Virus record (IMG/VR): IMGVR_UViG_3300032053_000216
Span: 1 to 37,861 of that record
From: a virus
DNA: 37,861 bases
Direction: 5' to 3' (one strand)
Part shown: positions 22,853 to 37,861 of the stretch, piece by piece
How positions within the stretch are numbered: position 1 is the first letter of the stretch
Layout: the number at the start of each line of letters is the position of its first letter
Notes under the pieces: generated by a model
Told to the model about the DNA's origin: nothing
Seen by the model: the letters and a program-made list of their open reading frames with translations, nothing else
The model's database searches: none
Position numbers and translations under genes: made by a program

Positions 22853-22868
22853 TATTGCACACTTTTAG

Positions 22869-22963: not shown

Positions 22964-22974
22964 CAGGATTGTCC

Positions 22975-23372: not shown

Positions 23373-23374
23373 TC

Positions 23375-23695: not shown

Positions 23696-23700
23696 AACAT

Positions 23701-23738: not shown

Positions 23739-23750
23739 AAGGAGCTGAAT

Positions 23751-24406: not shown

Positions 24407-24614
24407 ATACGCCCGGCTGGACTCGATTGCTTTGGCAGAGCAAGGCTACCGCATCCTGGATGCCCTGCTCGACGGGCTGGACAGCGCCCACCAGGTGCGC
24501 CAGGTCGGGCGCGCCATGGCCCACCTGAAAGAAATCCGTTTTAAATTGACCGTATGTAAAGACGGTCAAACACTCACCATCTATAAGGATGGCGAATCAT
24601 TCACCACAAAATGA
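24369..24614 (+). CDS. Hypothetical early protein
   Basis: 81-aa protein overlapping the membrane gene by 38 bases, starting ATG 24369 with GAGAGGA upstream. Residues 15-55 are helical (ARLDSIALAEQGYRILDALL, VRQVGRAMAHLKEI); the end (RFKLTVCKDGQTLTIYKDGE) forms two repeated strands, KDGQTLTIYKDGESFT. No family recognised. Confidence 0.5.
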   Translation: MATPAKKWPQNCEYARLDSIALAEQGYRILDALLDGLDSAHQVRQVGRAMAHLKEIRFKLTVCKDGQTLTIYKDGESFTTK

Positions 24615-24673
24615 TCAGGTTTTATATCCTGAATATCCTGTTCATCCCTGTTTCATCAGATAAGGAGATAAAA

Positions 24674-25339: not shown

Positions 25340-25340
25340 G

Positions 25341-25733
25341 ATGATCTCCCTTAAGCTCCGCTTTCAAAAATGGTTCTGGATCAAGCTGACTGAGCGTCTC
25401 CTGTTCCTCCAAAATAAGGGATGGAAAAAGCCCCGTCAGATGGTTCGCACCCCGCTGATCGTTCTCATACTCGAAGATGAACGTAAATCAGACCGCAGTC
25501 GCGATCTACTAACAGATCGAGTAAGTAAACAGAAGGCCCATATGTTCGGATTCTGGTTTCGATTGAAGGTTAAGTTCTGGCTGCTCGCCGTCCATTTCTC
25601 GTTCTGGCTGAAGCGAGCTATCGAAAAGCGGGCGGCGCAATCCGTCGGCCTGATCGGTGGTGGAGCGATGCTCGTCGACCGGAAGGGCGCGATGCTCAGC
25701 ATCTATGAGCATTCTCGACGGTTCAACTGCTGA
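25341..25733 (+). CDS. Hypothetical basic aromatic-rich protein
   Basis: 130-aa protein starting 1 base after the lipoprotein stop, without a strong ribosome site. It is rich in Lys, Arg, Trp and Phe with two similar amphipathic stretches: LRFQKWFWIKLTERLLF (about 5-21) and FRLKVKFWLLAVHFSFWLKR (about 72-91). This could mark a duplicated membrane-associating helix. Antisense ORFs exist over the same stretch, so the coding call is moderate only. No family recognised. Confidence 0.45.
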   Translation: MISLKLRFQKWFWIKLTERLLFLQNKGWKKPRQMVRTPLIVLILEDERKSDRSRDLLTDRVSKQKAHMFGFWFRLKVKFWLLAVHFSFWLKRAIEKRAAQSVGLIGGGAMLVDRKGAMLSIYEHSRRFNC

Positions 25734-25751
25734 ATAAATAATAATCTTACC

Positions 25752-25787
25752 CCTGCCTGCAGGCGCGTAACCTCGCCTGCAGGCAGG
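25752..25787. repeat. 14-bp perfect palindrome with CCTGCAGG core
   Basis: Arms CCTGCCTGCAGGCG (25752-25765) and CGCCTGCAGGCAGG (25774-25787) around CGTAACCT. Located in the 67-base gap between two early genes and followed by a GGAGA ribosome site, not by a T-run. It shares its core with 23635-23667. Confidence 0.7.
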
Positions 25788-25800
25788 CGGAGACAACCTG

Positions 25801-26199
25801 ATGACTGATGATGCTGTCAATAAGCCTGGATCCAGGAATAGATCTGAGAGAAGCCAACTGTATGGGCGCCACAGGAGGGAGACCATCAATGTGCCCAATG
25901 CCTATGTCGACCAGGATAATCCACCGCTTGAGGAGGGGGAACTGCGCACGCTGAAGGCCACCGACCTGGTGGAGTTCAACCGCATGGCGGAGAGTGAGTT
26001 CGTATATATCGTCCGCAATCTTTTGGCTGCCCCTGGCGCCATGCGAGCGCGGGAAGTATGCATCGAGTCTGCCGCTCGGCTCGATATTTCCATCGAAACC
26101 GCCAAGCGGTATCTATTGAAACACTCCGCGAGTATTTCCGAATTCGAGATCGAAAAAGGGTGGGTAAGAGAGCGGAAGAAACATAAACCGGCGAAATGA
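25801..26199 (+). CDS. Putative helix-turn-helix protein
   Basis: 132-aa protein. The N-terminal 55 residues are polar and likely disordered (NKPGSRNRSERSQLYGRHRR). The C-terminal half reads as a helical DNA-binding domain: VEFNRMAESEFVYIVRNLL, then MRAREVCIESAARLDISIET and AKRYLLKHS, where ARLDISIETAKRYL has the spacing of a recognition helix after a turn. It ends in a basic tail. Probably an early transcription regulator; no family recognised with certainty. Confidence 0.55.
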   Translation: MTDDAVNKPGSRNRSERSQLYGRHRRETINVPNAYVDQDNPPLEEGELRTLKATDLVEFNRMAESEFVYIVRNLLAAPGAMRAREVCIESAARLDISIETAKRYLLKHSASISEFEIEKGWVRERKKHKPAK

Positions 26200-26215
26200 G
26201 CGCTTTTCGAAGCGC
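26200..26215. terminator. Small TTCG-tetraloop hairpin
   Basis: GCGCTT (26200-26205), loop TTCG, AAGCGC (26210-26215), directly after the stop of the preceding gene. The cUUCGg-like loop is stable, but no T-tract follows, so it is at best a weak terminator or a transcript-end stabiliser. Confidence 0.4.
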
Positions 26216-26234
26216 CTTCTATTAAAGAGAGAAA

Positions 26235-26261
26235 GTGTGTGTGCGTGTGTGTGTGTGTGTG
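26235..26261. repeat. (GT)n dinucleotide microsatellite
   Basis: 27 bases of alternating GT with one C at 26244, ending 17 bases before a start codon and just upstream of its GGAAGG ribosome site. Slippage here would change leader length and spacing from upstream elements. It is one of three simple repeats in this 1-kb stretch. Confidence 0.9.
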
Positions 26262-26277
26262 ATTTCGGAAGGTCAAA

Positions 26278-26493
26278 ATGATCAACGATGAAGAACTTAA
26301 GAAAATCCAGAGTCGGGCAAAGAGGGCCGTAGATGATGGACACAAAGGGTTGACGATCGTGCTGGCCATGGAGCCGGTGATTGTATTCGCCCTCGCTGGA
26401 GAGCTGCTGCGGTTACGTGTATTGCAGAGAGCTTTCGAGAATGCCGTGGATGCTGGCCTGAAACGATCGAAGGATGCAGGCGATGAGCGATAA
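26278..26493 (+). CDS. Hypothetical small helical protein
   Basis: 71-aa protein with GGAAGG 7 bases before the ATG. It is almost entirely helical: INDEELKKIQSRAKRAVDDG, then a hydrophobic helix LTIVLAMEPVIVFALAGELL, then ALQRAFENAVDAGLKR-like. No transmembrane claim is made because the hydrophobic stretch is short and contains Glu and Pro. It overlaps the next gene by 11 bases. Function unknown. Confidence 0.5.
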   Translation: MINDEELKKIQSRAKRAVDDGHKGLTIVLAMEPVIVFALAGELLRLRVLQRAFENAVDAGLKRSKDAGDER

Positions 26494-27022
26494 CGAGATT
26501 GAAACCAAAGTCTATACCATCCGCTGGAATGACCTGGGCAAGTACCTGAAGCGCGGCATGCAGGTGATCTCGATCACGCCCGGATCGGGAGCCGAAACCA
26601 GCATGCTGGCGGTGCTGCCCGCTGAGCTGGTCGCCGATCTGGAGAAGAACCACAAGGGCAAGGGCAAGCGCAAGCCCAGCCTGCGGGATATCCTGGTGGA
26701 CCTGGCCGGATGGGCGAGCTTCAAGCCTGGGGACGTGCGGCGTGCGGTGCTATCCAGAGGGCTGGGGATCGACGTGATCTGTGGAATAGACGGCATGTGG
26801 CGGCTGCAGATCTGGCGGGAGGGCATCGAGCCGTCTCTCAAGGAATGGGAAACCGTGCTGAAGTCATGGCCCACACAGCTGCCGGAAGTGCCTAATAAGC
26901 GCTTTACTCACGACCAACGAAAGTATGTCCGTGGAGAATGGAAGGTTATCGATGAACAAACAGATATATCTGGTCAGCCTGCTGCCGGAGAAACCCCATT
27001 GGACGGCCATGCACAATCCTGA
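26483..27022 (+). CDS. Hypothetical early protein, mixed alpha/beta
   Basis: 179-aa protein. ATG 26483 is preferred to 26474 because AAGGA then sits about 9 bases upstream instead of adjacent. Segments: YTIRWNDLGKYLKRGMQVIS, LLAVLPAELVADLEKNHKGK-like, a Lys-rich loop, SLRDILVDLAGWASFKPGDV, GIDGMWRLQIWREGIEPSL and a polar tail. The GWASFKPGDVRRAVLSRGLG part could contact nucleic acid. No family recognised; it lies in the early operon and overlaps both neighbours. Confidence 0.5.
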   Translation: MSDNEIETKVYTIRWNDLGKYLKRGMQVISITPGSGAETSMLAVLPAELVADLEKNHKGKGKRKPSLRDILVDLAGWASFKPGDVRRAVLSRGLGIDVICGIDGMWRLQIWREGIEPSLKEWETVLKSWPTQLPEVPNKRFTHDQRKYVRGEWKVIDEQTDISGQPAAGETPLDGHAQS

Positions 27023-27170
27023 CGAGTCCGAGGACAAGATCGCAATATTTCGCAAGCTGCCGGGCGAGTTTACTAATCCCAGGTTGTACCGGTCCTACAA
27101 ATACCGGTCCGGCTTGCGATACGAGCGGTTGCTGCGCATCATTGGGCGGCACGGAGGCAGCCATGACTAG
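26952..27170 (+). CDS. Hypothetical small early protein
   Basis: 72-aa protein starting ATG 26952 with GGAAGG 7 bases upstream; the frame is open further upstream to 26925 but without a ribosome site. It reads NKQIYLVSLLPEKPHWTAMH, EDKIAIFRKLPGEFTNPRLY, RSYKYRSGLRYERLLRIIGR. The basic, aromatic C-terminal half could bind nucleic acid. It overlaps the upstream gene by 71 bases, which is large, so translation of both full lengths is uncertain. Confidence 0.45.
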   Translation: MNKQIYLVSLLPEKPHWTAMHNPDESEDKIAIFRKLPGEFTNPRLYRSYKYRSGLRYERLLRIIGRHGGSHD

Positions 27171-27271
27171 CTGCACTGGCGCAACCGACTTGAAGAAGAA
27201 GAAGAAGAAGAAGTCACATATATATTATATATATAGGGAAAAGTCCTATCCGGCACGGAGGCAGCCATGAC
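27147..27271. repeat. 21-bp direct repeat carrying ribosome site and start codon, with simple repeats between copies
   Basis: The 21-base string starting CGGCACGGAGGCAGCC and ending ATGAC occurs at 27147-27167 and again at 27251-27271. The bases after it also align (AGCTGCA-CTGGCGC versus AGATGTAACTGGTGC) with a 1-base gap. Between the copies lie (GAA)7 at 27192-27213 and an AT run at 27218-27235. It looks like a partial tandem duplication of the start of the gene at 27267. Confidence 0.8.
27163..27270 (+). CDS. Possible 35-aa ORF over the duplicated start (or degenerate copy)
   Basis: ORF starting in the first copy of the repeat: MTSCTGATDL, a run of seven Lys from the (GAA)7 repeat, then SHIYYIYREK and a stop overlapping the next start (ATGA). 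It has a GGAGG ribosome site, the same as the next gene. It could be a real coupled small ORF, but the alignment of its first bases to the next gene with a frameshift suggests a degenerate duplicate. Confidence 0.3.
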   Translation: MTSCTGATDLKKKKKKKSHIYYIYREKSYPARRQP

Positions 27272-27494
27272 GAGATGTAACTGGTGCGGATGTGAAGTCG
27301 ACAGCCGCAAAATCGACATAGACGGCAATCATCTGAACTTCACCGATTGCATTGGTGCGCTGAAGATCAAAGTCAAGGCGCTTACCCAGGAGCTGATCGA
27401 CGAGCGGGTGCTGACCGCCTCGCTGACCGAACACCTGGAAATCTGCAATATCATCTGCCCCCTGGCAGACGAAGAAGAAAAACAAACAAGTTAG
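27267..27494 (+). CDS. Small cysteine-rich (zinc-binding) protein
   Basis: 75-aa protein beginning MTRCNWCGCEVDSRKIDIDG: Cys4-x2-Cys7 and Cys9, with Cys28 in FTDCIGAL and two more in EICNIICPL. The first part resembles a short zinc ribbon; the middle is a coiled coil (IKVKALTQELIDERVLTASL). GGAGG lies 6 bases upstream of the ATG. Likely a small regulatory or nucleic-acid-binding early protein; exact role unknown. Confidence 0.55.
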   Translation: MTRCNWCGCEVDSRKIDIDGNHLNFTDCIGALKIKVKALTQELIDERVLTASLTEHLEICNIICPLADEEEKQTS

Positions 27495-27520
27495 CTAAGT
27501 GACGAGATAAGGAGTGAACG

Positions 27521-28066
27521 ATGTTAATCAAATTCAATTTCCCACTGGAACCCAACATTGCAGTAAAGACGGTGCTCGAGGGCCTGGCCCTGTCTGATAG
27601 GCTGAAACTCGTGGCGCTGATGCAAGTCGAGACCGAAGATGAAACCGTGGCGGCGCTGCTGCGGACTCTGCCGGAAGCGAAAGAAGTATTCCCACCTGGC
27701 ACAGTCGTGGGTTTTCTCGCCTCGCCTCCTGCCGACCACGTGGTGGTGACCAAGCCGAAGCGCGAGAGAGCCAAGCGCACCTACACTTCCGGGCCACTGG
27801 TGGAATGTAAGGCCTGTCACAAGCAAAAACCAGCCGCGCAGATGTGCAAAACCGGCGAGTGTAAAACCTGCCGAATGCAAGGATTGAAGCAGGAGAAACT
27901 TGCGGAAAAGTCGCAGCCGGCTAAAAAGTCGCAAGTGGAGAAGCACCCGGAAACCTGGACCAACCGGCGGCCAGAATTTGGAAAAGAAGAGGCGGTATCG
28001 CAAATCCGGGATAAGCCACAAGTACAAGTCGATCTGCATAAATTAGCGGGTCGAAGGGTTGGGTGA
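27521..28066 (+). CDS. Zinc-finger early protein
   Basis: 181-aa protein, ribosome site AAGGAG before ATG 27521. Residues 1-70 are a helical/alpha-beta domain (LSDRLKLVALMQVETEDETV). A basic linker (KPKRERAKRTY) leads to a Cys cluster, Cys96, Cys99, Cys109, Cys114 and Cys117 (VECKACHKQK...CKTGECKTC), which would bind zinc. The last 60 residues are Lys/Gln-rich and likely disordered. Probably nucleic-acid binding; no family recognised. Confidence 0.55.
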   Translation: MLIKFNFPLEPNIAVKTVLEGLALSDRLKLVALMQVETEDETVAALLRTLPEAKEVFPPGTVVGFLASPPADHVVVTKPKRERAKRTYTSGPLVECKACHKQKPAAQMCKTGECKTCRMQGLKQEKLAEKSQPAKKSQVEKHPETWTNRRPEFGKEEAVSQIRDKPQVQVDLHKLAGRRVG

Positions 28067-28069
28067 ACT

Positions 28070-28501
28070 TTGAAAGCGATCACCCTGACACAACCCTGGG
28101 CGACATTCGTGGCTCACGGGATCAAGACCATCGAAACCAGAAGCTGGTCAACGGCCTATCGGGGCTGGCTGGCGATCCACGCGGCCAAGGGTTTCCCAGA
28201 ATGGGCGAAAAATCTTTGCGTCGAAAAGCCTTTCGACTTCTTTCTTAAAAGATTGGGATATACCGTCGAAACGCTTCCGACAGGCTGTGTGCTCGCGAAA
28301 GCCAATCTGATCGATTGTATTCGGTTTACCGTCGGGTACGAGCCTCCTGGACACGAGTCGGAATTCGGCGATTTCACGATCGGCCGTTATGGGTTTATAT
28401 TCGCTGCGATCAAGCGTTTTGAGAAACCCATCCCAGCTACCGGTGCATTGAACCTTTGGGACTGGAATATTCCAGACGAACAATTCCGGTTTCATAAATA
28501 G
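28070..28501 (+). CDS. ASCH/PUA-like domain protein
   Basis: 143-aa protein that opens KAITLTQPWATFVAHGIKTI followed by ETRSW and RGWLAIHAAKG, the hallmark start of ASCH domains (small PUA-like beta barrels that bind RNA or modified nucleotides), and closes with GRYGFIFAAIKRFEKPIPATG. Proteins of this type are frequent in phages and are thought to act in RNA binding or processing. No ATG is available; TTG at 28070, 3 bases after the previous stop, is the best start. Confidence 0.8.
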   Translation: MKAITLTQPWATFVAHGIKTIETRSWSTAYRGWLAIHAAKGFPEWAKNLCVEKPFDFFLKRLGYTVETLPTGCVLAKANLIDCIRFTVGYEPPGHESEFGDFTIGRYGFIFAAIKRFEKPIPATGALNLWDWNIPDEQFRFHK

Positions 28502-28504
28502 ATT

Positions 28505-28546
28505 CTTTCGCGTGCGAAAGTCTCAAAACCGAAAAAGTCTCAAAAC
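28505..28546. promoter_or_regulatory. Quasi-palindrome and direct repeats upstream of the parB-like gene
   Basis: CTTTCGC-GT-GCGAAAG (28505-28520) is a 16-base quasi-palindrome, the size of ParB binding sites. It is followed by two copies of AAAGTCTCAAAAC at 28517-28529 and 28534-28546, 17 bases apart. The block fills the 61-base gap before the parB-like gene and may be its own operator or a parS-like site (inference). Confidence 0.45.
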
Positions 28547-28562
28547 GAACAGGAGATGAAAC

Positions 28563-30215
28563 ATGGAAACCATGAACCAAACCATCCGCCAAATTCCATT
28601 AGACTACATCAAGCCGAATCCCTGGCAAACCAGACGGGGAGATCCGGACCCGGCCTATATTGAAGAGCTTGCCAACGACATCGCCGCCAACGGCCTGCTG
28701 CAGATCCCCATCGGCCGTATGCTCGACGATAAAGGGGCGCCGGTCGGCTTCGTAAAAATCGAAGCGCACGGCGGGGCATTTGCTTACCTGAAAGACAACC
28801 CAGGTGCGGTGGTCCAGCTCGCCTTCGGCCATAATCGCCTAGCTGCTTATCACCGGCTACATGTGCGGCTCGACGAGCCGGATATTCCCGCCGATTGGTC
28901 CGTCATGCCTGTGGATGTGCGCGTGCTCACTGATATACAGATGGCGGATTTTGCCTGGGCGGAGAACGATAAACGTCAGGACTTCACACCATTGGAACGA
29001 GCCATGGCGATCCGCAAGCGGATGGATGATTTCAGCTGGAGTCAGAAAGATATCGCCGAGCATTTGAGAGTATCGGCGCCGAGAGTAAGCAATGCCTTGC
29101 GATTGCTCGATTTACCTGAGGATATTCTGCAACTCATGGCGAAAGGGGAGTTAAGTGAACGTGTGGCATTGTCGTTGTCAACCTTATTCGACCTGCCTGA
29201 ATCACTGCGAAAAGAAGCGGAGACCCAATATTCCCCCAGTATCAAACCATCCTACATTGTGACACAGGCGATAGAAGGATTATCGTCGGATGGCATTCGG
29301 GAGCATATTGAGAGACTTGTGAAAAATTATTCCAAAGATTTACACCAGGCAATTTGGGATCTCGATTACATTTTCATCACCAGCGAGGCCATCTATTGGC
29401 CAGAATGCCGGACATGCGAGCTGCGACATAAACCGTTAAATATCTGCATTAAGCCAGACTGTTATGAGGCCAAGACCAGGGCCTGGAAAGCGGATTATCT
29501 CAAGTCAGCCAGCCAGGTCAGTGGGATTTTGCCGTTGGAAACCGAGATCGGCATTTACGAAGTCACCCATTTAAGTTACCGGCCATCGGCCGAAACTATT
29601 TTGAACTCCGGCTGCGAGAATTTACGGTTGGCATACATTTCCAATGGCGAGGGTCGCTTCACGTTGGAGGAGAGAGGATTTTCTAAGGCGACGATCGTCT
29701 GCCGGCAAAAGAATAGTCATTGCCAATGCCTTAGAGGTCTGGAGATATTAGAAGCCCAGCGGCGAAGAGCAGAGATCCAGGCGATCCAAGATACACCCAA
29801 GGCAGCAGATGATGCATCCCCTGAGGAAACCGAGGAAGTCGTTCAACCCCTTGCCCTGGAATCGCAACCGCCGGAGCCAGAGCAGCCCACGGCGGCCGAT
29901 CTGCAGGATCTGGTCAAACAGGATATGCGGAATGAAAAGGAATATAAAAAACTGGCGAAGGAAGCTCAGGACCGGGCAGCCCAGCTCATCGTGGATGGAT
30001 TAGCTGCTGACGATCTCGGCGCCTGGCGGCTCGTATATGACCGGGTGGCAGCTGGTGAAAACTGGAAGAATAGACCGATTGATGTCCTCGAGCTGCGCCA
30101 GGGGATTGCGAAGAAAATTATTAACCATCATGTATCCTATATTGAGCCGCAGGACATTCCGGAGAGATTGAAGAAGGTGCTGATCGATGCCGGTCTTCAG
30201 ATGCCGGTATTTTGA
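28563..30215 (+). CDS. ParB-like nuclease-domain/HTH protein
   Basis: 550-aa protein of the ParB/RepB/KorB type. N-terminal ParB domain: IPLDYIKPNPWQTRR at 11-25, EELANDIAANGLLQIP at about 34-49, and the box II-like GHNRLAAYHRL at 89-99. A helix-turn-helix lies at about 158-185 (WSQKDIAEHLRVSAPRVSNA). Cys282, Cys285, Cys295 and Cys300 (CRTCELRHKPLNICIKPDC) form a putative zinc site, with further Cys at about 380-395. The C-terminal part is acidic then helical. AGGAG lies 7 bases before ATG 28563. No ParA partner is seen nearby, so it may be a regulator or replication-associated factor rather than a partition protein. Confidence 0.85.
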   Translation: METMNQTIRQIPLDYIKPNPWQTRRGDPDPAYIEELANDIAANGLLQIPIGRMLDDKGAPVGFVKIEAHGGAFAYLKDNPGAVVQLAFGHNRLAAYHRLHVRLDEPDIPADWSVMPVDVRVLTDIQMADFAWAENDKRQDFTPLERAMAIRKRMDDFSWSQKDIAEHLRVSAPRVSNALRLLDLPEDILQLMAKGELSERVALSLSTLFDLPESLRKEAETQYSPSIKPSYIVTQAIEGLSSDGIREHIERLVKNYSKDLHQAIWDLDYIFITSEAIYWPECRTCELRHKPLNICIKPDCYEAKTRAWKADYLKSASQVSGILPLETEIGIYEVTHLSYRPSAETILNSGCENLRLAYISNGEGRFTLEERGFSKATIVCRQKNSHCQCLRGLEILEAQRRRAEIQAIQDTPKAADDASPEETEEVVQPLALESQPPEPEQPTAADLQDLVKQDMRNEKEYKKLAKEAQDRAAQLIVDGLAADDLGAWRLVYDRVAAGENWKNRPIDVLELRQGIAKKIINHHVSYIEPQDIPERLKKVLIDAGLQMPVF

Positions 30216-30227
30216 GGAAGAAATGAC

Positions 30228-30320
30228 ATGCCCCCCCAACTAACGCACGATAATAGGCTGGATTGGGAAGGGGATGAGGGGGGTGATGATGACGGAGATG
30301 ATGACCGTGATGACGTATGA
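30228..30320 (+). CDS. 30-aa highly acidic peptide
   Basis: ORF starting ATG 30228 with GAGGAAG upstream, reading MPPQLTHDNRLDWEGDEGGD then a run rich in Asp, and ending in an ATGA overlap with the next gene. Nearly every residue after position 14 is Asp, Glu or Gly. DNA-mimic proteins can be this acidic, but the size and low complexity make a firm role impossible to assign. The coupling to both neighbours supports translation. Confidence 0.45.
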   Translation: MPPQLTHDNRLDWEGDEGGDDDGDDDRDDV

Positions 30321-30559
30321 CCGCCCGGAGTACACCTGTGGCCGATGCAAAGAATGATCCCTCATTGATAGCCAGGCAGCGCGCGGAAGCCGTAAAAGAT
30401 GCCGTGGGCCGTTTATTATTATTGCTGGGGCCGGAGCGTATTTTGCAGCTCGCCCAGATGCTGGATGATGTAGCGACCGATACACGCTTTGGTGATGTGA
30501 AAATCATCATTACGGATGGGCGCGTGCGGCTGCTAAAGGTGGAGAAGAGTTATGAATAA
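30317..30559 (+). CDS. Hypothetical small protein upstream of the type IV cassette
   Basis: 80-aa protein starting at ATG 30317 (ATGA overlap) and ending inside the start of the csf1-like gene (8-base overlap). Residues 20-55 are helical (RQRAEAVKDAVGRLLLLLGP, ERILQLAQMLDDVA); the end is beta-like (GDVKIIITDGRVRLLKVEKS). The overlap couples it to the Cas cassette, so it may be cotranscribed with it. No family recognised. Confidence 0.55.
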   Translation: MTARSTPVADAKNDPSLIARQRAEAVKDAVGRLLLLLGPERILQLAQMLDDVATDTRFGDVKIIITDGRVRLLKVEKSYE

Positions 30560-31358
30560 TGTGCAAGGTAAGTGCAGGTTTTGTGGACAACGGTCCGATG
30601 GGGTGACCTTTACTGACTGGGTAAAGTCTACATTCACAGATTTCGATAAATTGCAGGCAGGCGAGATAGTTTGTAATGCCTGCCTGTTTTTCTTTGAGGA
30701 AGCGTCGCTGGAGCTTGCGGCGCGGATGGAAAAAGACAAGCCGCAAAAGATGCGCAACTATTCCCATTTCGTCCTGGGGGGCCAGTGGACACCTTTAAGC
30801 AAGGGCAATAAGGCTAAAATGCAAGCATTACTCATGGGGGAAACATTTCCTGAGTTGGCAGCCATCGCTGACAGCGGGCAGAAACATATCGTTTTCAGGG
30901 CAATGCGCAATCCCGCAGGCAGCAAAGCTGGATGGGTGCAATTCGAAGAACAGCGGATTTATCTTGTCCCCGCGGAATTACAGGCCTTGCTCGCGCGCGT
31001 CGAAAGCCTGTACGCTCGGTTTTCTAAAGGCGAAATCGAGAGCGGGAATTATTATGGGCATCGCATTTTACAATTCGGCATGGCGCGCTGGCAAGAGTTG
31101 GAAGACCAAATCAAGCCCATGCGCGGCAAGCCTATCTTTTCACTGGCGCTTTTTTTAGCGCGAAGGAGCGACGATGGAGAATCAGGAACTCAGGAATCAA
31201 GCGGCAATTCTGCTAACCTCAATCTGGCGCGGGACGCCAGCCGAATACAAGAGCAAGTATCGGATGACCATCTGGACGCAGTACGAGAACCAGGTGAGGA
31301 GCGCGGCCTACACCAACAATCTGGCAAAGTTCATCAACTCACTTTGTTCAAAATTTAG
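30552..31358 (+). CDS. csf1: Csf1-like protein of a type IV-B CRISPR-Cas cassette
   Basis: 268-aa ORF, ribosome site GGAGAAG before ATG 30552. A four-cysteine zinc finger, Cys8-x2-Cys11 and Cys41-x2-Cys44 (KCRFCGQR ... VCNACLFF), opens the protein as in Csf1, the Cas8-like subunit of type IV effectors. Further text: NYSHFVLGGQWTPLSKGNKA, GWVQFEEQRIYLVPAEL, MARWQELEDQIKPMRGKPIF. From about residue 203 the sequence (RRSDDGESGTQESSGNSANL) looks like out-of-frame translation of the next gene, which it overlaps by 185 bases. A run of seven T at 31150-31156 precedes it; one T fewer would give a stop TAG just before the next gene's ribosome site. The family call relies on the finger and the order of the following genes. 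Confidence 0.75.
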   Translation: MNNVQGKCRFCGQRSDGVTFTDWVKSTFTDFDKLQAGEIVCNACLFFFEEASLELAARMEKDKPQKMRNYSHFVLGGQWTPLSKGNKAKMQALLMGETFPELAAIADSGQKHIVFRAMRNPAGSKAGWVQFEEQRIYLVPAELQALLARVESLYARFSKGEIESGNYYGHRILQFGMARWQELEDQIKPMRGKPIFSLALFLARRSDDGESGTQESSGNSANLNLARDASRIQEQVSDDHLDAVREPGEERGLHQQSGKVHQLTLFKI

Positions 31359-31560
31359 CGCCGAAGCTGGTAAGGATGCAGGTGACCGCGCCGAGGTTGA
31401 ACGTATTGTCAATTCTGGCAACGACCGCGCAATTCTTAAGATGTTGCGCGACGAAACAACCTTGATTGTACTCATGGTGCGCGTTGCCAATCAGGAAAAG
31501 CGCGAAGAATGGGAACGTTTACACCAGGAAGAAACGGAGAATTTTAAATGCAAACATTAG
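31174..31560 (+). CDS. cas11: Cas11-like small subunit of the type IV-B effector
   Basis: 128-aa all-helical protein with a strong ribosome site (AAGGAG, 6 bases before the ATG). Segments: ELRNQAAILLTSIWRGTPAE, MTIWTQYENQVRSAAYTNNL, AKFINSLCSKFSAEAGKD, RAILKMLRDETTLIVLMVRV. Size, helicity and position between Csf1- and Cas7-like genes match the Cas11 small subunit that in type IV-B complexes lines the inner face of the RNP. Small subunits diverge strongly, so identification rests on context. It overlaps the Cas7-like gene by 13 bases. Confidence 0.72.
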   Translation: MENQELRNQAAILLTSIWRGTPAEYKSKYRMTIWTQYENQVRSAAYTNNLAKFINSLCSKFSAEAGKDAGDRAEVERIVNSGNDRAILKMLRDETTLIVLMVRVANQEKREEWERLHQEETENFKCKH

Positions 31561-32522
31561 TTTTCGAAGGTACGATGACTGCCCTTACATCCATTAGCCA
31601 TATTGGTGATTCTCACGGCGTTAATTCCAAGTTGCGCCGCGAGAAGGTGATCCAACCAGACGGCTCGGTGGAGGAGGTGCCAATTATTTCCGGTAATGCT
31701 CTGCGGGGCATCCTACGAGATCGAGGCATGCTGCACATGCTCAAATGCCTGGGCTACGGTGTCAACGAGCAAACAGGCGAGGTCAGGGGTCTTTCTCTTG
31801 CTGCGTTCTATTTCCTCTTTAGCGGCGGGGCATTGACCAAGATGGATGGGCGCGGCCTGGATGTAGATGAGGCGAGGAAGTGGCGCAATCTGATCCCGCT
31901 GGTAGCATTGTTTGGTGGGGCGATGGGCAATCAAATCATGCCCGGAAAATGCAAGATTGGGAAGGCGATCCCGATTTGCGCCGAAACCGCCCATATCATC
32001 CCCGAGCGATACCTGGAAAACAGCGCTGAAAGTGTTTGGGAGTTGTGCCAGGAAGAAGCCTACACACGCCGCGATGATGAAAAAAACGAGAACCTGCGCC
32101 AATTGATAGCCCCGGAAGTGCGCGGGTTACTGGAAGCATCCGCCACCGCCAGGCGCGAAAAGGCACACGCTGGCGATGAAGTGGTGGTAGAGACCGGGCA
32201 GAAACAGCAGATGCGCTATTATGTCGAAACATTGGCTGCCGGTACGCGGTTATATTGGGAAATCACGCTGGACGATGTAACCGACCTGGAGCGTGAGGCA
32301 TTCTGTGTTACGCTGGCAGAATTTTCCCGCCTCCCCTATATCGGGGGCAAAAGCGGCGTGGGACACGGCAAGGTATCCATCAAATTCGACAAATGGATCG
32401 ATATCGATCCTCGTATTGCTCCAACCGGCAAGGCGATTACATTCGCCCTGGGCAATCTCTACCAACAGCACCTGCAGGAGCGCGGAGACGATATTCGCGA
32501 GCTTATTAATGGCATCACGTGA
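31548..32522 (+). CDS. csf2: Cas7/Csf2-like RAMP backbone protein
   Basis: 324-aa RAMP-family protein. The N-terminus FEGTMTALTSISHIGDSHGV and residues 46-58 (IISGNALRGILRD) are the Cas7 signature in which a loop with Ser-x-Leu-Arg-Gly packs against crRNA. The C-terminal glycine-rich loop GGKSGVGHGK lies at about 266-275. Cas7 subunits polymerise along the guide RNA. Both motif types occur in Csf2, Csm3 and Cmr4, but pairing with a Csf1-like finger protein, Cas11 and a Cas5-like gene with CysH points to subtype IV-B. GGAGAATTTTAA precedes the ATG. Confidence 0.9.
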   Translation: MQTLVFEGTMTALTSISHIGDSHGVNSKLRREKVIQPDGSVEEVPIISGNALRGILRDRGMLHMLKCLGYGVNEQTGEVRGLSLAAFYFLFSGGALTKMDGRGLDVDEARKWRNLIPLVALFGGAMGNQIMPGKCKIGKAIPICAETAHIIPERYLENSAESVWELCQEEAYTRRDDEKNENLRQLIAPEVRGLLEASATARREKAHAGDEVVVETGQKQQMRYYVETLAAGTRLYWEITLDDVTDLEREAFCVTLAEFSRLPYIGGKSGVGHGKVSIKFDKWIDIDPRIAPTGKAITFALGNLYQQHLQERGDDIRELINGIT

Positions 32523-33213
32523 GGATTTGCACTTCGAACCCTTGCAAATTACCGCCACTTTACGCACCGCGGTAGTTTCCGATCCCTGGCTGCCGCTGGA
32601 TGGTCTGCTGCTCTACCAGCAAACGCGGGAAGGACTGGGCGCGCCCGCGATGAGCACACCGGGTTTATCCAACCTTGCGCGGCCCAAAGGACAGGAAATG
32701 AGAGGCGGGAAACTGCCGATCAAGACCGTCCACGGTAAAGAGTGGTATTATCGCTGCTCCTGGGCGCAGTGGGGGCCAAACGTCGAAGGCAAGGATTATT
32801 GGAACAAACGCTTCGACACGTCCCTTGCCAGCCTAGTCGAGTTTGGAGACCGGCGCGGGACGGTCAACAACCTGGCCGGGCGGTATAAGGCCTATCACCA
32901 GCCTGTGTTTTACCGTTCGGCTTTGTGGGTGCGCTGGTATTGCATGGGGGACAAGGTTGAGATCGAGCGGTTGTTATCTGCGCTTACGCACGTGGGCAAA
33001 AAATACGCACAGGGTTGGGGCCGGGTGGCGCGCTGGGAAGTCCAGCCAATCAGTGATGACTGGTCGATTTGGAGATATGGGAAACTCATGCGCGGCATAC
33101 CATCTTTCGATAAACCGCCTGACTACCCGGGCAATCTTGCTCTTTACGGCATCCGCCCATCTTATTGGGATAAACGCAATCAGATAATGGTGGTGGTGCC
33201 ATGCGAGATCTGA
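32509..33213 (+). CDS. csf3: Cas5/Csf3-like RAMP protein
   Basis: 234-aa RAMP-family protein. The start ATG 32509 overlaps the Cas7-like gene by 14 bases; the frame is open further upstream to 32293, but that is inside cas7. The N-terminus reads FEPLQITATLRTAVVSDPWL (ferredoxin-like first strand) and residues 163-173 give the Gly-rich loop GKKYAQGWGRV, as in Csf3 and other Cas5 proteins. It would cap the 5' handle end of the guide. Trp/Tyr-rich surface text (EWYYRCSWAQWGP) is also seen. Good match by motif and order. Confidence 0.88.
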   Translation: MASREDLHFEPLQITATLRTAVVSDPWLPLDGLLLYQQTREGLGAPAMSTPGLSNLARPKGQEMRGGKLPIKTVHGKEWYYRCSWAQWGPNVEGKDYWNKRFDTSLASLVEFGDRRGTVNNLAGRYKAYHQPVFYRSALWVRWYCMGDKVEIERLLSALTHVGKKYAQGWGRVARWEVQPISDDWSIWRYGKLMRGIPSFDKPPDYPGNLALYGIRPSYWDKRNQIMVVVPCEI

Positions 33214-33521
33214 GATATGAGATTATCCAGAGACTGCCCTATACCCGTATGGTCAGGATCTGTGAGGATCGATATCCAGGAATGCACCCGGCGGACGTAG
33301 TGAGTTATTTGAGACTGGGCGAACAAATGACCCAAGAGCAAGCCGCAAAATACCTTGGGGTATCGTTAAGCTGTATCCGCCGATGGCAAAAACCAGAAGC
33401 TGGGGTGCATATCTTGACAGAACGGGAACTCGAAAGCAAACGGAGAAGTGCTCAGGCATTGAATGGAAAAATAAGAAACGGCGAAATTGTATCGGGTAGA
33501 AGGTGGCGTAATGCAAGATGA
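33201..33521 (+). CDS. Small helix-turn-helix protein inside the type IV-B cassette
   Basis: 106-aa basic protein overlapping the Cas5-like stop by 13 bases and the CysH-like start by 11. Residues 43-63 (MTQEQAAKYLGVSLSCIRRW) are a MerR/excisionase-type helix-turn-helix. Upstream, RDLRYEIIQRLPYTRMVRIC and GMHPADVVSYLRLGE add helices; the tail is Lys/Arg-rich. A DNA-binding regulator or an ancillary subunit is likely; the palindromic operator at 34273-34292, just after the cassette, is a possible target. Its fixed position between cas5 and cysH suggests function with the cassette (inference). Confidence 0.65.
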   Translation: MRDLRYEIIQRLPYTRMVRICEDRYPGMHPADVVSYLRLGEQMTQEQAAKYLGVSLSCIRRWQKPEAGVHILTERELESKRRSAQALNGKIRNGEIVSGRRWRNAR

Positions 33522-34242
33522 ACTTGCACTTCTGGGTAGACTAAAAACATACCAATTCCGAATCGAAAAGAGCCGTAGAATTATCAATGCTGCACTTGAA
33601 ATTCCAGCAAGGTGGGGTGTGTCTTTTTCTGGCGGGAAGGATAGTACCGTATTGCTTGATTTGGTTTTGAAAGAAAAGCCAGAACTGGAGATAGTTTGGT
33701 TCGATGATGGATGGGATTACCCGGAGACAATCCAATTCCTGGCATCCACTGAAAATCGATTACGTAAACATATTATCCGCGTGCCTTATCCGTTACAGTC
33801 GCAATTCTGGAAAAAAGAAGCAAACTACGGAGGCGACGATCCAACTTATTCCCACAATTTCGATATGACGTACAAGGACTGGCGAGGAGCTTTCATGGGC
33901 TCTTTCATGGGGATGCGTCGGGACGAATCCAGCCGGCGCGATTTTGTTCTGAAGAAATCGCCGCTTTATTTTCAAAAAACTTTGGGGCACTGGCATTGCT
34001 CGCCCCTTGCCGAATGGACAGCAAAAGATATCTGGGGGTATATCGCTGCGAACGACCTCCCGTTCAATCCGGTGTATCGAAAACTATATTCCCTTGGGGT
34101 GGCGCTAGACGAAATGAGAGTTGGCCCGTTGACGGCCTGGATGGTTTGGCAATACGGCGCTTTGGTTTACATCAAGAGAGGTTGGCCCGACCTATTCAAT
34201 CGCTTCGCGGCCCAATTTCCTGAGGCGCGGTCGTATGTGTAG
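33511..34242 (+). CDS. cysH: CysH-like PP-loop ATP pyrophosphatase associated with type IV-B
   Basis: 243-aa protein with the PP-loop VSFSGGKDSTV (SGGKDS at residues 40-45), ELEIVWFDDGWDYPET at about 59-74 and GMRRDESSRRDF at about 134-145, typical of the PAPS reductase/ATP pyrophosphatase superfamily. LGHWHCSPLAEWTAKDIWGY at about 158-177 is also family-typical. The C-terminal ECG(L)H catalytic motif of true PAPS reductases is absent: the only Cys, Cys163, is in HWHCSPL. Such cysH-like genes mark subtype IV-B cassettes, where they may activate or modify a substrate rather than reduce sulfur. GAAGG precedes the ATG at 33511. Confidence 0.88.
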   Translation: MQDELALLGRLKTYQFRIEKSRRIINAALEIPARWGVSFSGGKDSTVLLDLVLKEKPELEIVWFDDGWDYPETIQFLASTENRLRKHIIRVPYPLQSQFWKKEANYGGDDPTYSHNFDMTYKDWRGAFMGSFMGMRRDESSRRDFVLKKSPLYFQKTLGHWHCSPLAEWTAKDIWGYIAANDLPFNPVYRKLYSLGVALDEMRVGPLTAWMVWQYGALVYIKRGWPDLFNRFAAQFPEARSYV

Positions 34243-34266
34243 GCTTATAGGGGTGAGAACTCCCTA

Positions 34267-34295
34267 TTGACAATAACCTAACGATAGGTTATACT
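34267..34295 (+). promoter_or_regulatory. Strong promoter with palindromic operator filling the spacer
   Basis: TTGACA (34267-34272), 17 bases, TATACT (34290-34295). The spacer begins with ATAACCTA (34273-34280), then ACGA, and TAGGTTAT (34285-34292) completes a perfect 8-bp dyad that reaches into the -10. A dimeric regulator binding there would exclude RNA polymerase. It drives the two genes after the type IV-B cassette, with AAGGAG before the next ATG. Confidence 0.85.
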
Positions 34296-34320
34296 TAATC
34301 AAGATAAGGAGATAACAGTC

Positions 34321-34803
34321 ATGGCAACCCTGGCAAAAACCATCCAAACCAAAAACGGTACAATCGCAATAACACGGACGCGCGAGACCCAGGATAAAAT
34401 CTGGTACGCTGATGGAGCTAATCTCAGGACGGGCCGCGAGAATGTCGATATCACCGAGATCGTTGTACGCAATAAAGACGGCAAACAACTTACCAAAAGT
34501 TTGCATGTCCCCCAAGAACTCACCCCCCAATTTTACAAGAATTATCAAGAATTGGTCAGCAAAGGCGCTTACGCACGACTTGGTGATGCCTACATCGGGC
34601 AGGAGTCGTTCCAAAAAGTTATGGCTGCGCTCGCGGAACTTGACGCAGAATTGGGTCAGTCGGATGAGTTTGCCGCAATTACAAAAGCGGAAGCCGCAGC
34701 AGAAGCAGCCGAAACAGCCGCTTATATTCCCGAACCCAAGCACGGTGAAAATGGCTACTGCCGCAAGTGCCACTCTTATTGTTATGGAGATTGCGAGGCA
34801 TAA
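34321..34803 (+). CDS. Hypothetical protein under the palindromic-operator promoter
   Basis: 160-aa protein with AAGGAG 9 bases before the ATG. A beta-rich first half (TKNGTIAITRTRETQDKIWY, VDITEIVVRNKDGKQLTK) is followed by a helical part (LTPQFYKNYQELVSKGAYAR, FQKVMAALAELDAELGQ), an Ala/Glu-rich linker and a final cysteine cluster, Cys147, Cys150, Cys154 and Cys158 (GYCRKCHSYCYGDC), probably zinc-binding. No family recognised. Its own strong promoter separates it from the Cas cassette, so it may be expressed at a different time. Confidence 0.6.
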   Translation: MATLAKTIQTKNGTIAITRTRETQDKIWYADGANLRTGRENVDITEIVVRNKDGKQLTKSLHVPQELTPQFYKNYQELVSKGAYARLGDAYIGQESFQKVMAALAELDAELGQSDEFAAITKAEAAAEAAETAAYIPEPKHGENGYCRKCHSYCYGDCEA

Positions 34804-35255
34804 TGACAGTGCACAAGTATACCTACAAGGTCGTCGAGGACAACGGAGGCGGATTGTCCTTGTACGTGTTTGATGGGGCAAAAGCCATCTTTGCCAATTC
34901 CGCATACGAGTACAGCCGGGGGCATCTCAAGCAAGACATGGATGCACTCGACTCGGGCTCCGATACCTCGGACTGGGAGGGTTGCGAGGATGATCCACAG
35001 GCTTCTTGGGACAGCATCACATCCCAGGAATATGGCTGGCATATCGTTGCCAGTGGAGGAGGAGGTAAGCACAGACTCCACAAGGCCGTCATGGGAGCAG
35101 CGGCTCAACTTGAGTTTGCGGTATCCGATGACAATCGGGACGCTGCCTGGGCCGCAAGTCAACTTGGCTCTATCAAGTCTCCTCGCAAAGCCGCATCCAG
35201 CGCGGCAAACGGGCGAAAGGGAGGCCGTCCTCGCAAACCCAAAAAAGGTGTATAA
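34803..35255 (+). CDS. Hypothetical protein with AT-hook-like C-terminal tail
   Basis: 150-aa protein starting at ATG 34803, overlapping the upstream stop (TAATG). The main part is alpha/beta with acidic patches (HKYTYKVVEDNGGGLSLYVF; ALDSGSDTSDWEGCEDDPQA) and a helix (LHKAVMGAAAQLEFAVSDDN). The tail after residue 125 is Lys/Ser/Ala-rich and ends GRKGGRPRKPKKGV, where GRPRKP matches an AT-hook core, so binding to AT-rich DNA is plausible. The order with the preceding gene and terminator makes a two-gene transcription unit. Confidence 0.6.
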   Translation: MTVHKYTYKVVEDNGGGLSLYVFDGAKAIFANSAYEYSRGHLKQDMDALDSGSDTSDWEGCEDDPQASWDSITSQEYGWHIVASGGGGKHRLHKAVMGAAAQLEFAVSDDNRDAAWAASQLGSIKSPRKAASSAANGRKGGRPRKPKKGV

Positions 35256-35256
35256 T
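35251..35256 (+). promoter_or_regulatory. TATAAT-like -10 before the lysis module leader
   Basis: Consensus TATAAT at 35251-35256, overlapping the stop of the preceding gene. No good -35 is found at the right distance (about 35228-35233 reads TCCTCG), so an activator or different sigma factor would be needed. A transcript from here would meet the terminator at 35286-35334 after about 20 bases. Confidence 0.35.
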
Positions 35257-35285
35257 TGAATCAGCCCTAGACTAGCAGGTATCTG

Positions 35286-35334
35286 CCGGGGCCGCATTTT
35301 TGCCATTTATGGCAAGTTGCGGCCCCGGTTTTTT
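35286..35334 (+). terminator. Strong rho-independent terminator
   Basis: Perfect 11-bp stem CCGGGGCCGCA (35286-35296) with TGCGGCCCCGG (35318-35328), then TTTTTT (35329-35334). A second small stem TTGCCAT/ATGGCAA (35300-35306 and 35309-35315) nests inside the loop. It ends the transcription unit that follows the type IV-B cassette and stands in front of the lysis genes. Confidence 0.9.
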
Positions 35335-35350
35335 GTTTAAGGAGGCTCTC

Positions 35351-35719
35351 ATGACACTCGGAACAATTGCGATCTTAATTGCGGTGGCGTTTGCCCTGGC
35401 TTTCCTGACCGAGAGCCTGGTTGAATATCTAATGGGCACGCCTATGGAGCATGTGGCCGTGCTCAAGCCCTGGAAGTGGTCGCTGATGTATATTGCGGCC
35501 GCGGTGGGGGTTGGGTTGGCGCTGTACTGGAAGATTGATTTGATTGCGGTGGTAGCTAACGGCGTGGCAACATTATCCAAGATTGAATTATCTTGGTCAG
35601 TCTCGCCGGTGGGGCAAATATTATCTGGTCTGATCATCGGGAGGGGCAGTAATTTCCTGCATGACTTCCTGGGTAAAGTGCTGGTAAAACCTGAATTGCC
35701 ATTCAAGGCGCAGCCGTGA
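35351..35719 (+). CDS. Holin-like membrane protein
   Basis: 122-aa protein with GGAGG 6 bases before ATG 35351. Predicted membrane helices at about 3-21 (LGTIAILIAVAFALAFLTES), 42-60 (WSLMYIAAAVGVGLALYWKI) and a weaker one at about 90-105 (VGQILSGLIIGRGSNFLHDF). Followed by another membrane protein and an endolysin, the usual lysis cassette, so it is probably the holin that permeabilises the membrane. The frame is open upstream to 35300 through the terminator, which is rejected as coding. Confidence 0.72.
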   Translation: MTLGTIAILIAVAFALAFLTESLVEYLMGTPMEHVAVLKPWKWSLMYIAAAVGVGLALYWKIDLIAVVANGVATLSKIELSWSVSPVGQILSGLIIGRGSNFLHDFLGKVLVKPELPFKAQP

Positions 35720-35979
35720 CCGGCACAGGCTGGGAATCACTCGCAGCCCAAGCCCCCATCGTTCTGATATTCGCGGGGGCTGTGTTCTTTCTCATGCGCG
35801 AACAAGCTAAAAACACGAAAGTCATGCTGGATACCTTCATGTTGTTCATGGAGCGGCGAGACGAGGCAATCTACCAAGCCATGCGGCACGTCGCCGCGTC
35901 TCTCGATGCACACGATGACCGCTCACGCTCACACGATCAGTTCGTGCGCGAACAACTCAAGGAACGGAAAAAAGCATGA
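35716..35979 (+). CDS. Second small lysis-module membrane protein
   Basis: 87-aa protein, GTG start overlapping the holin-like stop (GTGA). One N-terminal membrane helix (residues about 12-27, QAPIVLIFAGAVFFLMREQA) followed by a charged helical domain (TFMLFMERRDEAIYQAMRHV, DDRSRSHDQFVREQLKERKK). This shape fits BhlA/XhlA-like proteins that accompany holins, or an antiholin. It overlaps the endolysin gene by 4 bases. Confidence 0.65.
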   Translation: MTGTGWESLAAQAPIVLIFAGAVFFLMREQAKNTKVMLDTFMLFMERRDEAIYQAMRHVAASLDAHDDRSRSHDQFVREQLKERKKA

Positions 35980-36719
35980 ACTTTATTCTTGGCATAGATG
36001 TGTGGGAAGGTAATCCTAATCTGGACGAGGCAATATTAAAGGCCGCCGGCGTTCAATTTCTAATCATCCGGTTGAACGATATGAACGGCGAGAACCACCT
36101 GGATGCCAACTTCGCCGCTCAGTGGGCGCAAGCTCAGCCGTTTATCCACTGGCCTTACTATGTCTACTCGCCCTGGTATTCCGGCGAAACCAATTTCGCT
36201 TGGGTTGCCGCTCACGTGCCCGCTGATGCCACCGCTCTGATGGTGGACATCGAGGTACGCAAGGATGGGTATTCACCCGCGGAATATTCCAAGCAGGTTG
36301 ACAGTTTCTTGGCGCTCGCCACGCGGCGATGGAAGGACATGATCTACACCGGCAAGTGGTTCGAAACCTGCCTCGCCACATGGCCCAAGAATAAAGAATA
36401 TGTCTATGCCCGCTATCCATTTATCGTTTATCCAGACGCACGCCAGCATTGGACTTGGGAGAAGCTCAAGCATGTTATGTATAACATGACCTGGCAGCCT
36501 GGCAGCGCCCCGGGTCCATGCCGCATGTGGCAGATCACAGGCGACAGGTTGATCCTGCCTGGATGCGGCGAGACATGCGTGGACGTCCTGGCGTGGAATG
36601 GGACAGTTGAAACACTGGCTGCATTCGTGGGCGCGCCTGTTCCATCTCCCGTTGATTGGGAACATTCGATTACCACCTGGGCGCGGTCGCTCGGGTACAC
36701 CGGGCCGGAGCCAGAATGA
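35976..36719 (+). CDS. Endolysin, GH25 lysozyme-like
   Basis: 247-aa protein matching the glycoside hydrolase 25 fold: the first strand is FILGIDVWEG (GIDVS-like), a loop FLIIRLNDMNGENHLD, then PYYVYSPWYSG and the catalytic pair Asp91/Glu93 in LMVDIEVRKDGYS. Later strands MIYTGKWFETCLA and RMWQITGDRLILPGCGETCV complete the barrel. GH25 enzymes cleave beta-1,4 bonds in peptidoglycan, releasing phage. It sits after two membrane proteins and overlaps the HNH gene (ATGA). The C-terminal 35 residues could be a wall-binding extension. Confidence 0.85.
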   Translation: MNFILGIDVWEGNPNLDEAILKAAGVQFLIIRLNDMNGENHLDANFAAQWAQAQPFIHWPYYVYSPWYSGETNFAWVAAHVPADATALMVDIEVRKDGYSPAEYSKQVDSFLALATRRWKDMIYTGKWFETCLATWPKNKEYVYARYPFIVYPDARQHWTWEKLKHVMYNMTWQPGSAPGPCRMWQITGDRLILPGCGETCVDVLAWNGTVETLAAFVGAPVPSPVDWEHSITTWARSLGYTGPEPE

Positions 36720-37069
36720 TGCCATACGCAGCACCAAAACCATGTTCTTACCCCGGATGCAACACTCTCGTGCGCTTCGGTCGCTGCGATCAGCACAAGA
36801 GTATGCTCACCTATGCACGAGATCCAGAGCGACAGGCCCTATATAACACAGCCGCCTGGCATCGCATTCGCCTGGCACAACTGGCTGCGGAACCATGGTG
36901 CGCCGAGTGTTTGCGTGCCAACATCTACATACCGGCGACTGATGTCGATCATGAAGAGCCTCACAGGGGTGACCCTGTCAAGTTCTACACAGGCAAATTG
37001 CAATCATTATGTCATCCCTGCCACAGCAGCAAGACTGCGGCAGAAGTATTGAATAAGAAGGTTCATTAA
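36716..37069 (+). CDS. HNH endonuclease (packaging-associated type)
   Basis: 117-aa protein starting at ATG 36716 (overlap ATGA) with a cysteine-rich start (PCSYPGCNTLVRFGRCDQH), then RDPERQALYNTAAWHRIRL, PWCAECLRANIYIPA and an HNH core: TDVDHEEPHRGDP and LQSLCHPCHSSKTA. This is the small HNH protein found next to terminase genes in many HK97-type phages, where it supports cleavage by the terminase. The terminase small subunit lies just past the window edge if the genome is circular. Confidence 0.85.
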   Translation: MMPYAAPKPCSYPGCNTLVRFGRCDQHKSMLTYARDPERQALYNTAAWHRIRLAQLAAEPWCAECLRANIYIPATDVDHEEPHRGDPVKFYTGKLQSLCHPCHSSKTAAEVLNKKVH

Positions 37070-37813
37070 ATGACATATTGCACTTGGTGTGGAGAATGGT
37101 TCACTCCTGATAATGAACATCCTTATCAGAAGTTTTGCCGTACTGAACACCGTAAGAAATATGATCATAAGCAAGAGAATATTAGGCGATCGCAGAAGAG
37201 GAGAGAGAAGTTCACACCTTGCCCATTTTGCGGAACGCCATTCTCGCCATCTAAAGAGCATCTGAAATATTGCTCTGATATGTGCAGTTCTATAGCATAT
37301 GTTCTGAATATTCAGGAGCGCCATAAAACAATAGTAACTGAAAATAAAGGTCGGATACGAAATTGCAAATATTGTGGCCGCGAATTCAACACTAAAGTAA
37401 CAGGCCGTTCTAAATATGATACAGACAAATGCTATTTTCTTGATGTTTATGGCCACGAAGAACCCCGTGAAATAGTAAAGAATTGTGAGTATTGTGGTAA
37501 AGAATATCCGACCAGGATATCTAAATCAATTGCTTGTTGCCACGGTCATACACGTAGGTTGAATAAGATCAGACGTAAAGCGAGAATGCGTAGCACTGAA
37601 CAAGTGCATTATTCAAGGTTCGGAATCTTTCAACGTGATAACTTCATCTGCTATATATGCGGCAGGCCTTTGAATATGGATGCGGTTGCCCCTCAATGGG
37701 ATAGTCCCTCTATAGATCATGTTGTGGCATTGTCTAATGGTGGAAATGATACGCCAAGTAATGTGAAGGCTGCTCACTTCCTATGTAACACGATCAAGAG
37801 TAATAGACAATGA
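37070..37813 (+). CDS. Multi-zinc-finger HNH homing endonuclease-like protein
   Basis: 247-aa protein directly after the HNH stop. It has four Cys-rich ribbons: CTWCGEWF...FCRTEH, CPFCGTPFS...CSDMC, CKYCGREFN...DKCYF and CEYCGKEYP...CCHGH, followed by a C-terminal HNH: FQRDNFICYICGRPLNM, SIDHVVALSNGGND, HFLCNTIKSNRQ. These zinc ribbons are probably DNA-binding, as in GIY/HNH homing endonucleases. The gene is visibly more AT-rich than its neighbours, pointing to independent acquisition. Confidence 0.8.
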   Translation: MTYCTWCGEWFTPDNEHPYQKFCRTEHRKKYDHKQENIRRSQKRREKFTPCPFCGTPFSPSKEHLKYCSDMCSSIAYVLNIQERHKTIVTENKGRIRNCKYCGREFNTKVTGRSKYDTDKCYFLDVYGHEEPREIVKNCEYCGKEYPTRISKSIACCHGHTRRLNKIRRKARMRSTEQVHYSRFGIFQRDNFICYICGRPLNMDAVAPQWDSPSIDHVVALSNGGNDTPSNVKAAHFLCNTIKSNRQ

Positions 37814-37861
37814 TGCAAATGGGTATGCCGGCAATAATGTTTGCAACTTTTTTCGTACTAG
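37810..37861 (+). CDS. Small hydrophobic ORF, cut by the window edge
   Basis: ATG at 37810 overlaps the stop of the HNH gene (ATGA) and reads MMQMGMPAIMFATFFVL to the edge. If base 37861 is joined to base 1, the frame continues for three codons and stops at TGA (9-11), giving a 20-aa hydrophobic peptide ending 34 bases before the terminase start. This supports, but does not prove, that the window is a linearised circle. Confidence 0.3.
   Translation, partial: MMQMGMPAIMFATFFVL

Follow-up and report, generated by a model that had tools for sequence, protein, structure and literature searches.

The DNA analyzed here is a virus record of 37,861 nucleotides (IMG/VR IMGVR_UViG_3300032053_000216), referred to below as the window. 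On its + strand it carries a type IV-B-like cassette (30552..34242) and, directly downstream, a two-gene operon that forms the subject of this report. The cassette consists of a csf1-like gene (30552-31358), a cas11-like gene (31174-31560), csf2 (31548-32522), a csf3-like gene ending at 33213, a gene encoding an HTH protein (33201-33521, weak HTH match) and a cysH-like gene (33511-34242; Pfam PAPS_reduct, E 2e-25), which closes it. The csf2 assignment comes from NCBIfam TIGR03115 (E 4e-23, 82 of 130 bits and thus below the curated cut-off) and that of csf1 from a sub-cut-off Csf1 hint (E 0.019); the csf2 and csf3 positions also match PHROG families of unknown function. Eighteen related viral loci were retrieved via csf2, and the cassette gene order is kept across them. 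The HTH protein, encoded between csf3 and cysH, is weakly similar to the Xer-activation factor and to excisionase-type HTHs, and among related cassettes it has a homologue only in the sister phage L002 (58%). The - strand encodes a CI-like phage repressor (22460-22852; HTH_3, E 2e-12) and a large serine-recombinase-like protein, recognized by eye (19004-20656), which adjoins the repressor region and fits a temperate phage.

Promoter, dyad and operon structure

The promoter of the operon reads TTGACA-N17-TATACT on the + strand (34267..34295), with the -35 element at 34267-34272, which starts 24 bases past the stop of the cysH-like gene, a 17-base spacer at 34273-34289 and the -10 element at 34290-34295. 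Matching the consensus at 11 of 12 positions, it is the best sigma-70-type match within 22000-37861, a region with 17 promoter-like sites, a total not above chance (14.5 expected). The second-best promoter, TTGACA-N17-TAATAT at 22899-22927, lies in the gap beside the CI-like repressor gene, and the AACCTA operator is absent from it.

The 17-base spacer is filled completely by a dyad of 20 bases (34273..34292, no strand assigned), ATAACCTA-ACGA-TAGGTTAT, a predicted operator that also reaches three bases into the -10 element. The two 8-base arms are perfect; in the ACGA center the C and G pair while the outer A and A do not, giving 18 symmetric positions out of 20. The core AACCTA-N4-TAGGTT spans 34275-34290 and matches both half sites in full (12/12), and the site occurs only once in the 37.9-kb record. 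Perfect 8+8 dyads with a center of 0-6 bases number 7 in the window against a mean of 5.25 in shuffled versions, and because such dyads are no rarer than chance, symmetry alone proves nothing. This is, however, the sole one of them that lies within a strong promoter, and many unrelated genomes have the same site at the same promoter position. The meaning of the dyad rests on this position and recurrence and not on its symmetry. The promoter and repressor-type dyad that an earlier note had described right after the type IV-B cassette can thus be read directly in the sequence.

Downstream of the promoter, a ribosome-binding site (AAGGAG, 34306..34311) precedes by 9 bases the ATG of ORF1 (34321..34803, + strand, 160 aa), the first gene of the operon, whose C-terminal end, CRKCHSYCYGDCEA, is possibly metal-binding. 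The second gene, ORF2 (34803..35255, + strand, 150 aa), begins with an ATG that overlaps the ORF1 stop by one base (TAATG), and is followed by a strong Rho-independent terminator (35285..35335, + strand), in which the stretch 35285-35329 (-36.6 kcal/mol, z -6.75) precedes a TTTTTT run. One promoter, two overlapping genes and a terminator ending at about 35335 make this a complete, closed operon, and its place after cysH is kept in related phages, in line with the earlier proposal that the two genes form a separately controlled unit. Two short overlapping genes on a single promoter is also the layout of type II toxin-antitoxin genes.

ORF1 gave no recognizable relative by sequence or fold outside the sister phages in Pfam, PHROG, NCBIfam and structure searches. 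We read no function from its AlphaFold model because of low confidence (pLDDT 65) and weak structural matches, the best being at E 0.27 in the PDB and at E 0.024, with low TM, among viral structures. When ORF1 and ORF2 were each searched as single sequences against viral contigs and phages, no matches came back, and relatives were reached only via the neighboring csf2. Neither ORF1 nor the N-terminal part of ORF2 is a DUF4160 or DUF2442 protein (Pfam), and ORF2 has no HTH match in Pfam, PHROG or NCBIfam. ORF2 does carry a basic C-terminal tail, KAASSAANGRKGGRPRK (the protein ends in LGSIKSPRKAASSAANGRKGGRPRKPKKGV); its residues 121-145 fit the motif [A]-S/T-x-x-[AE]-N-G-[KR]-x-G-G-R-P. The DNA for this proposed operator-reading segment, LGSIKSPRKAASSAANGRKGGRPRK, lies at 35163..35237 on the + strand.

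Association of the operator with the C-terminal tail

Genes encoding this tail were gathered from viral contigs, genome contigs, plasmids and phages by the protein motif alone, with promoters disregarded. The carriers include HicB antitoxins, DUF2442 proteins encoded beside DUF4160, 50-residue zinc-ribbon proteins, 42-residue tail-only proteins and many phage orphans. We then scored 600 bp upstream of each gene by a 12-point match to AACCTA-N2..7-TAGGTT, with a cut-off of at least 11. Such sites were present upstream of 32 of the 84 tail genes and downstream of none of 80 (Fisher p=1.6e-11), and the controls were close to empty: 0/84 for reversed sequences, 1/84 for shuffled sequences and 0/84 for a mock motif. 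The site of most scoring genes, patterned as AACCTA-N4..6-TAGGTT, lies in the spacer between -35 and -10.

The association holds within a single protein family. Four genome samples supplied 88 DUF2442 genes; the operator was found with 7 of the 11 that carry the tail and with 1 of the 77 that do not (p=4e-7). Of the 11 tail-positive genes, 8 had already been in the discovery set, and each of the 3 others reached a score of 11 or more. When only DUF2442 genes with a DUF4160-like gene upstream were considered, the counts were 4/6 with the tail and 0/19 without it (p=0.001). In the reverse direction, a search of viral contigs for the promoter-embedded operator pattern returned 15 matches in 12 distinct contexts by our own grouping, of which six had a tail gene within 2 kb and six had the operator without one. 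A pattern of the dyad plus the -10 element gave 10 matches in viral contigs, mostly with no -35 in place, and only L028, a HicAB locus, was informative: its site, AACCTAGCGATAGGTTATACT, is one base apart from that of the window, AACCTAACGATAGGTTATACT.

The association is incomplete: at the strict score, no clear site precedes about 40-50% of tail genes. Alphaproteobacterial DUF4160-DUF2442 pairs below the cut-off have a related site, CCAAAGCGCTTGGG or CCTAACCGCTTGGG, in the same place. A clade of small acidobacterial zinc proteins (L089, L123, L247, L248 and L249) has the tail and no upstream operator. Its members are 50-65 aa long and follow the pattern MxKCPxHRIDLV...CPACRG...KAASSRANGRLGGRPRK; their close relatives L101, L104, L250 and L252 have the operator. 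A prospective search of about 770 genomes for the tail yielded only five new genes, two with the operator and three from the operator-less clade.

No solved structure with the tail was found, and the tail is absent from Pfam and NCBIfam as a named family. The AlphaFold model of a tailed DUF2442 protein shows it as a helix followed by an extended arm at low confidence (pLDDT about 55), which we did not count as evidence. AT-hooks and the GRPR arm of Hin-type recombinases combine a G-R-P core with basic flanks and lie beside A+T-rich DNA, recalling the GGRPRK end. Unlike these, the ORF2-type tail follows a conserved KAASSxxNG segment and is tied to a sequence-specific dyad containing G and C, with which its contact is putative.

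Related phages and exchange of the second gene's end

Related phages have the module at the same position, past cysH. In L002 it lies past cysH on the opposite strand, with an ORF1 homologue (L002:7533-7988) that is 45% identical to ORF1 of the window and a second gene that ends in ASSAENGKLGGRPRKETQ and so retains the tail. The promoter, TTGACA-ACCTAAACGATTAGGTA-TATACT, contains the dyad ACCTAA-ACGA-TTAGGT; compared with the window, the spacing of the half sites differs and the dyad is kept about the same ACGA center. Just upstream of this promoter, on the cassette strand, L002:8053-8121 is a 69-base copy, 100% identical, of an internal csf1 piece (L002:3437-3505), which could be a recombination scar or something functional.

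In two further relatives, L011 and L016, the second genes match that of L002 or each other at 46-49% identity, and carry an excisionase-like end instead of the tail (L011 by a weak Pfam HTH_17 match, E 0.026; L016 by eye). A third locus, L192, is a phage contig in which csf2 was looked for and none was found; the N-domain of its second gene belongs to the same family as those of L011 and L016, and the contig stops before the C-terminus. In the first genes, a C-terminal CxxCHSYCYGDC is common to ORF1 and the L011 protein, and a CxxCHTYCYGDC version is found in L192. In all three loci the spacer element differs from that of the window and is of the type TGCCG...GGTA, the operators being TTGACTAATGTGCCGTATGCGGTATTATAT in L011, TTGACAATTATTGCCGCTTGTGGTAATATA in L016 and TTGACAATTAGTGCCGCATACGGTATTATAT in L192. 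Past cysH and on the same strand, L005 has a promoter with a dyad together with two genes, one small and one excisionase-like. In the window, the N-terminal part of ORF2 shows no significant similarity to the N-domain of L002 and L011.

Judged from these sequences, the place behind cysH is taken again and again by an operon with a dyad in its promoter. The second gene of such an operon either ends in a DNA-binding-like segment or consists of one, and this segment and the operator appear to change together. Another promoter of a related cassette phage, L006, is filled by a perfect 24-base palindrome, TTGACATTATATATAACGTTATATATAATAT, about 1.87 kb past cysH on the - strand (near 14768-14796).

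Proposed control of the operon and competing explanations

Taking the operator-tail recurrence together with the operator change upon tail exchange, we consider it probable that this two-gene phage operon represses itself, with the site serving as its operator and the C-terminal tail of ORF2 as the part that reads it. Sigma-70 RNA polymerase would read the promoter and transcribe ORF1 and ORF2 strongly as long as no repressor sits on the phage DNA. ORF2, presumably dimeric, would then bind AACCTA-N4-TAGGTT via its tail, cover the spacer and the -10 element and shut the promoter. The expected output is an initial burst that settles to a low, set level, the behavior known from type II toxin-antitoxin and acr-aca operons. 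ORF1 would most likely be an accessory early protein that needs dosage, either antitoxin-controlled or anti-defence. No link of the operon to the type IV-B complex was found beyond position, and most likely the operon is independent of the neighboring cassette yet travels beside it.

We lean modestly toward a broader reading, in which KAASSxxNGxxGGRPRK is a short module that reads DNA without an HTH and can be exchanged. It would make unrelated carriers (HicB, DUF2442, zinc-ribbon mini-proteins and phage early proteins) repressors of their own promoters via AACCYA-N4..6-TRGGTT, would fill in phages the place of the HTH Aca in anti-defence operons, and could be swapped, together with its operator, for an excisionase-like domain.

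What ORF1 does may be narrowed further in two ways. In the first, ORF1 would act against defence or in early host takeover, and ORF2 would be an Aca-like repressor limiting it after the first burst, an option that is possible but less likely than not. The earlier note had likewise put forward an anti-defence role for the gene pair, next to candidate roles as effectors or cassette regulators. The acr-aca architecture consists of variable small gene(s) ahead of a DNA-binding gene, under a core promoter that contains an inverted repeat (PMC9410906), and the operon shares with it the phage setting, a variable small first gene, a second gene proposed to encode the repressor and the inverted repeat inside the core promoter. 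The first genes of such phage operons vary and the second genes have common DNA-binding ends, and the operon adjoins a type IV-B cassette. On the other hand, known bacterial Aca proteins are defined by an HTH, and the downstream gene here encodes a basic tail with no HTH match; searches of general protein-family libraries (Pfam, PHROG and NCBIfam) brought up no resemblance to known anti-defence proteins either.

The second narrowing makes the operon a toxin-antitoxin pair with ORF1 as toxin and ORF2 as antitoxin and autorepressor, serving addiction or anti-phage use; we regard it as tentative and somewhat doubtful. Gene order, the one-base overlap and the place of the operator are as in DUF4160-DUF2442 and HicA-HicB pairs bearing the same tail. 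In the tail-bearing DUF4160-DUF2442 pairs, which are of the DhiT-DhiA type, the first gene is followed by an overlapping second gene with a GGRPRK tail and the promoter contains AACC[T/C/A]A-N-T[A/T/G]GGTT, whereas ORF1 and the N-terminal part of ORF2 belong to neither family. DhiTA, a pair of these two families, is a working module with published autorepression, in which DhiA alone halves the activity of its own promoter and the DhiTA complex lowers it by 70-99% (PMC8198452). HicAB loci with a GGRP-tailed HicB (L028, L046 and L088) likewise agree in promoter position, in the tailed second gene and in a near-identical operator (1 base of 21 differs in L028), but HicA and HicB domains are absent from ORF1 and ORF2. 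Against a toxin, ORF1 is unlike any by sequence or fold, the first genes of phage tail operons are very varied, unlike a single toxin family, and the tail gene is the first or sole gene in L052, L079 and L104.

Binding by another phage regulator, either the CI-like repressor or the HTH protein 33201-33521, would couple the operon to lysogeny or cassette function, and is unlikely. Both genes encode an HTH, clearly in the repressor and weakly in the cassette protein, and among related cassettes the latter occurs only in L002, the one other phage of this operator type; we ascribe this sharing to co-inheritance, these being the most similar cassettes. The operator is single-copy in the record, and the same operator precedes tail genes in bacteria and plasmids, with no such phage or cassette HTH gene noted nearby. 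These two regulators, along with a ribbon-helix-helix protein, were the binders put forward earlier, and we do not favor them: the operator tracks the GGRPRK tail across HicB, DUF2442 and orphan phage proteins, and it changes when the tail of ORF2 gives way to an excisionase-like end.

A chance dyad within an ordinary constitutive promoter is very improbable. About five dyads of such size are indeed expected per shuffled window, but chance does not account for recurrence in the promoters of tail genes (32/84 against 0/80), nor for the sister phage L002, where the sequence is altered and still symmetric. MqsA is a Zn/HTH antitoxin, unlike ORF2. That the site is meant for a host MqsA-like antitoxin is scarcely credible. 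The half sites AACCT and AGGTT are identical to those of the published MqsA palindrome AACCT(N)3AGGTT (PMC4894380) but are separated by six bases at 34275-34290 instead of two or three (AACCT(N)2-4AGGTT at the widest), 6-8 being usual in the tail family, and the operator tracks the tail and no MqsA gene.

Autorepressed two-gene operons are already known as a kind. What appears to be new in the preferred reading, autorepression through the ORF2 tail, is a shared tail that would read the operator without an HTH; nothing relevant on GGRPRK-type strings was found in a literature search with subscription journals mostly outside its coverage, where an earlier description is possible. If the tail does read the operator, a motif of roughly 25 residues would predict both a repressor and its DNA site and would provide a simple finder for autoregulated operons, toxin-antitoxin and possibly anti-defence, among the orphan genes of phages and plasmids. 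Type IV-B cassettes are poorly understood, and the pair of genes next to this one would become a testable inducible unit; the natural domain-and-operator swaps would serve the study of how autorepressors change specificity.

Tail-like sequences were also seen in other settings. Four 55-aa proteins (L030, L033, L047 and L067), encoded downstream of a small gene, have two GKKGG-type repeats and an ATAKANGKKGGRPKK tail and no recognizable operator; their tail possibly has a different specificity. An ENGKKGGRP-like sequence is also present in DUF1376 and primosomal phage proteins of Vibrio, Acinetobacter and Pseudomonas phages, and the motif may help replication proteins to bind DNA as well.
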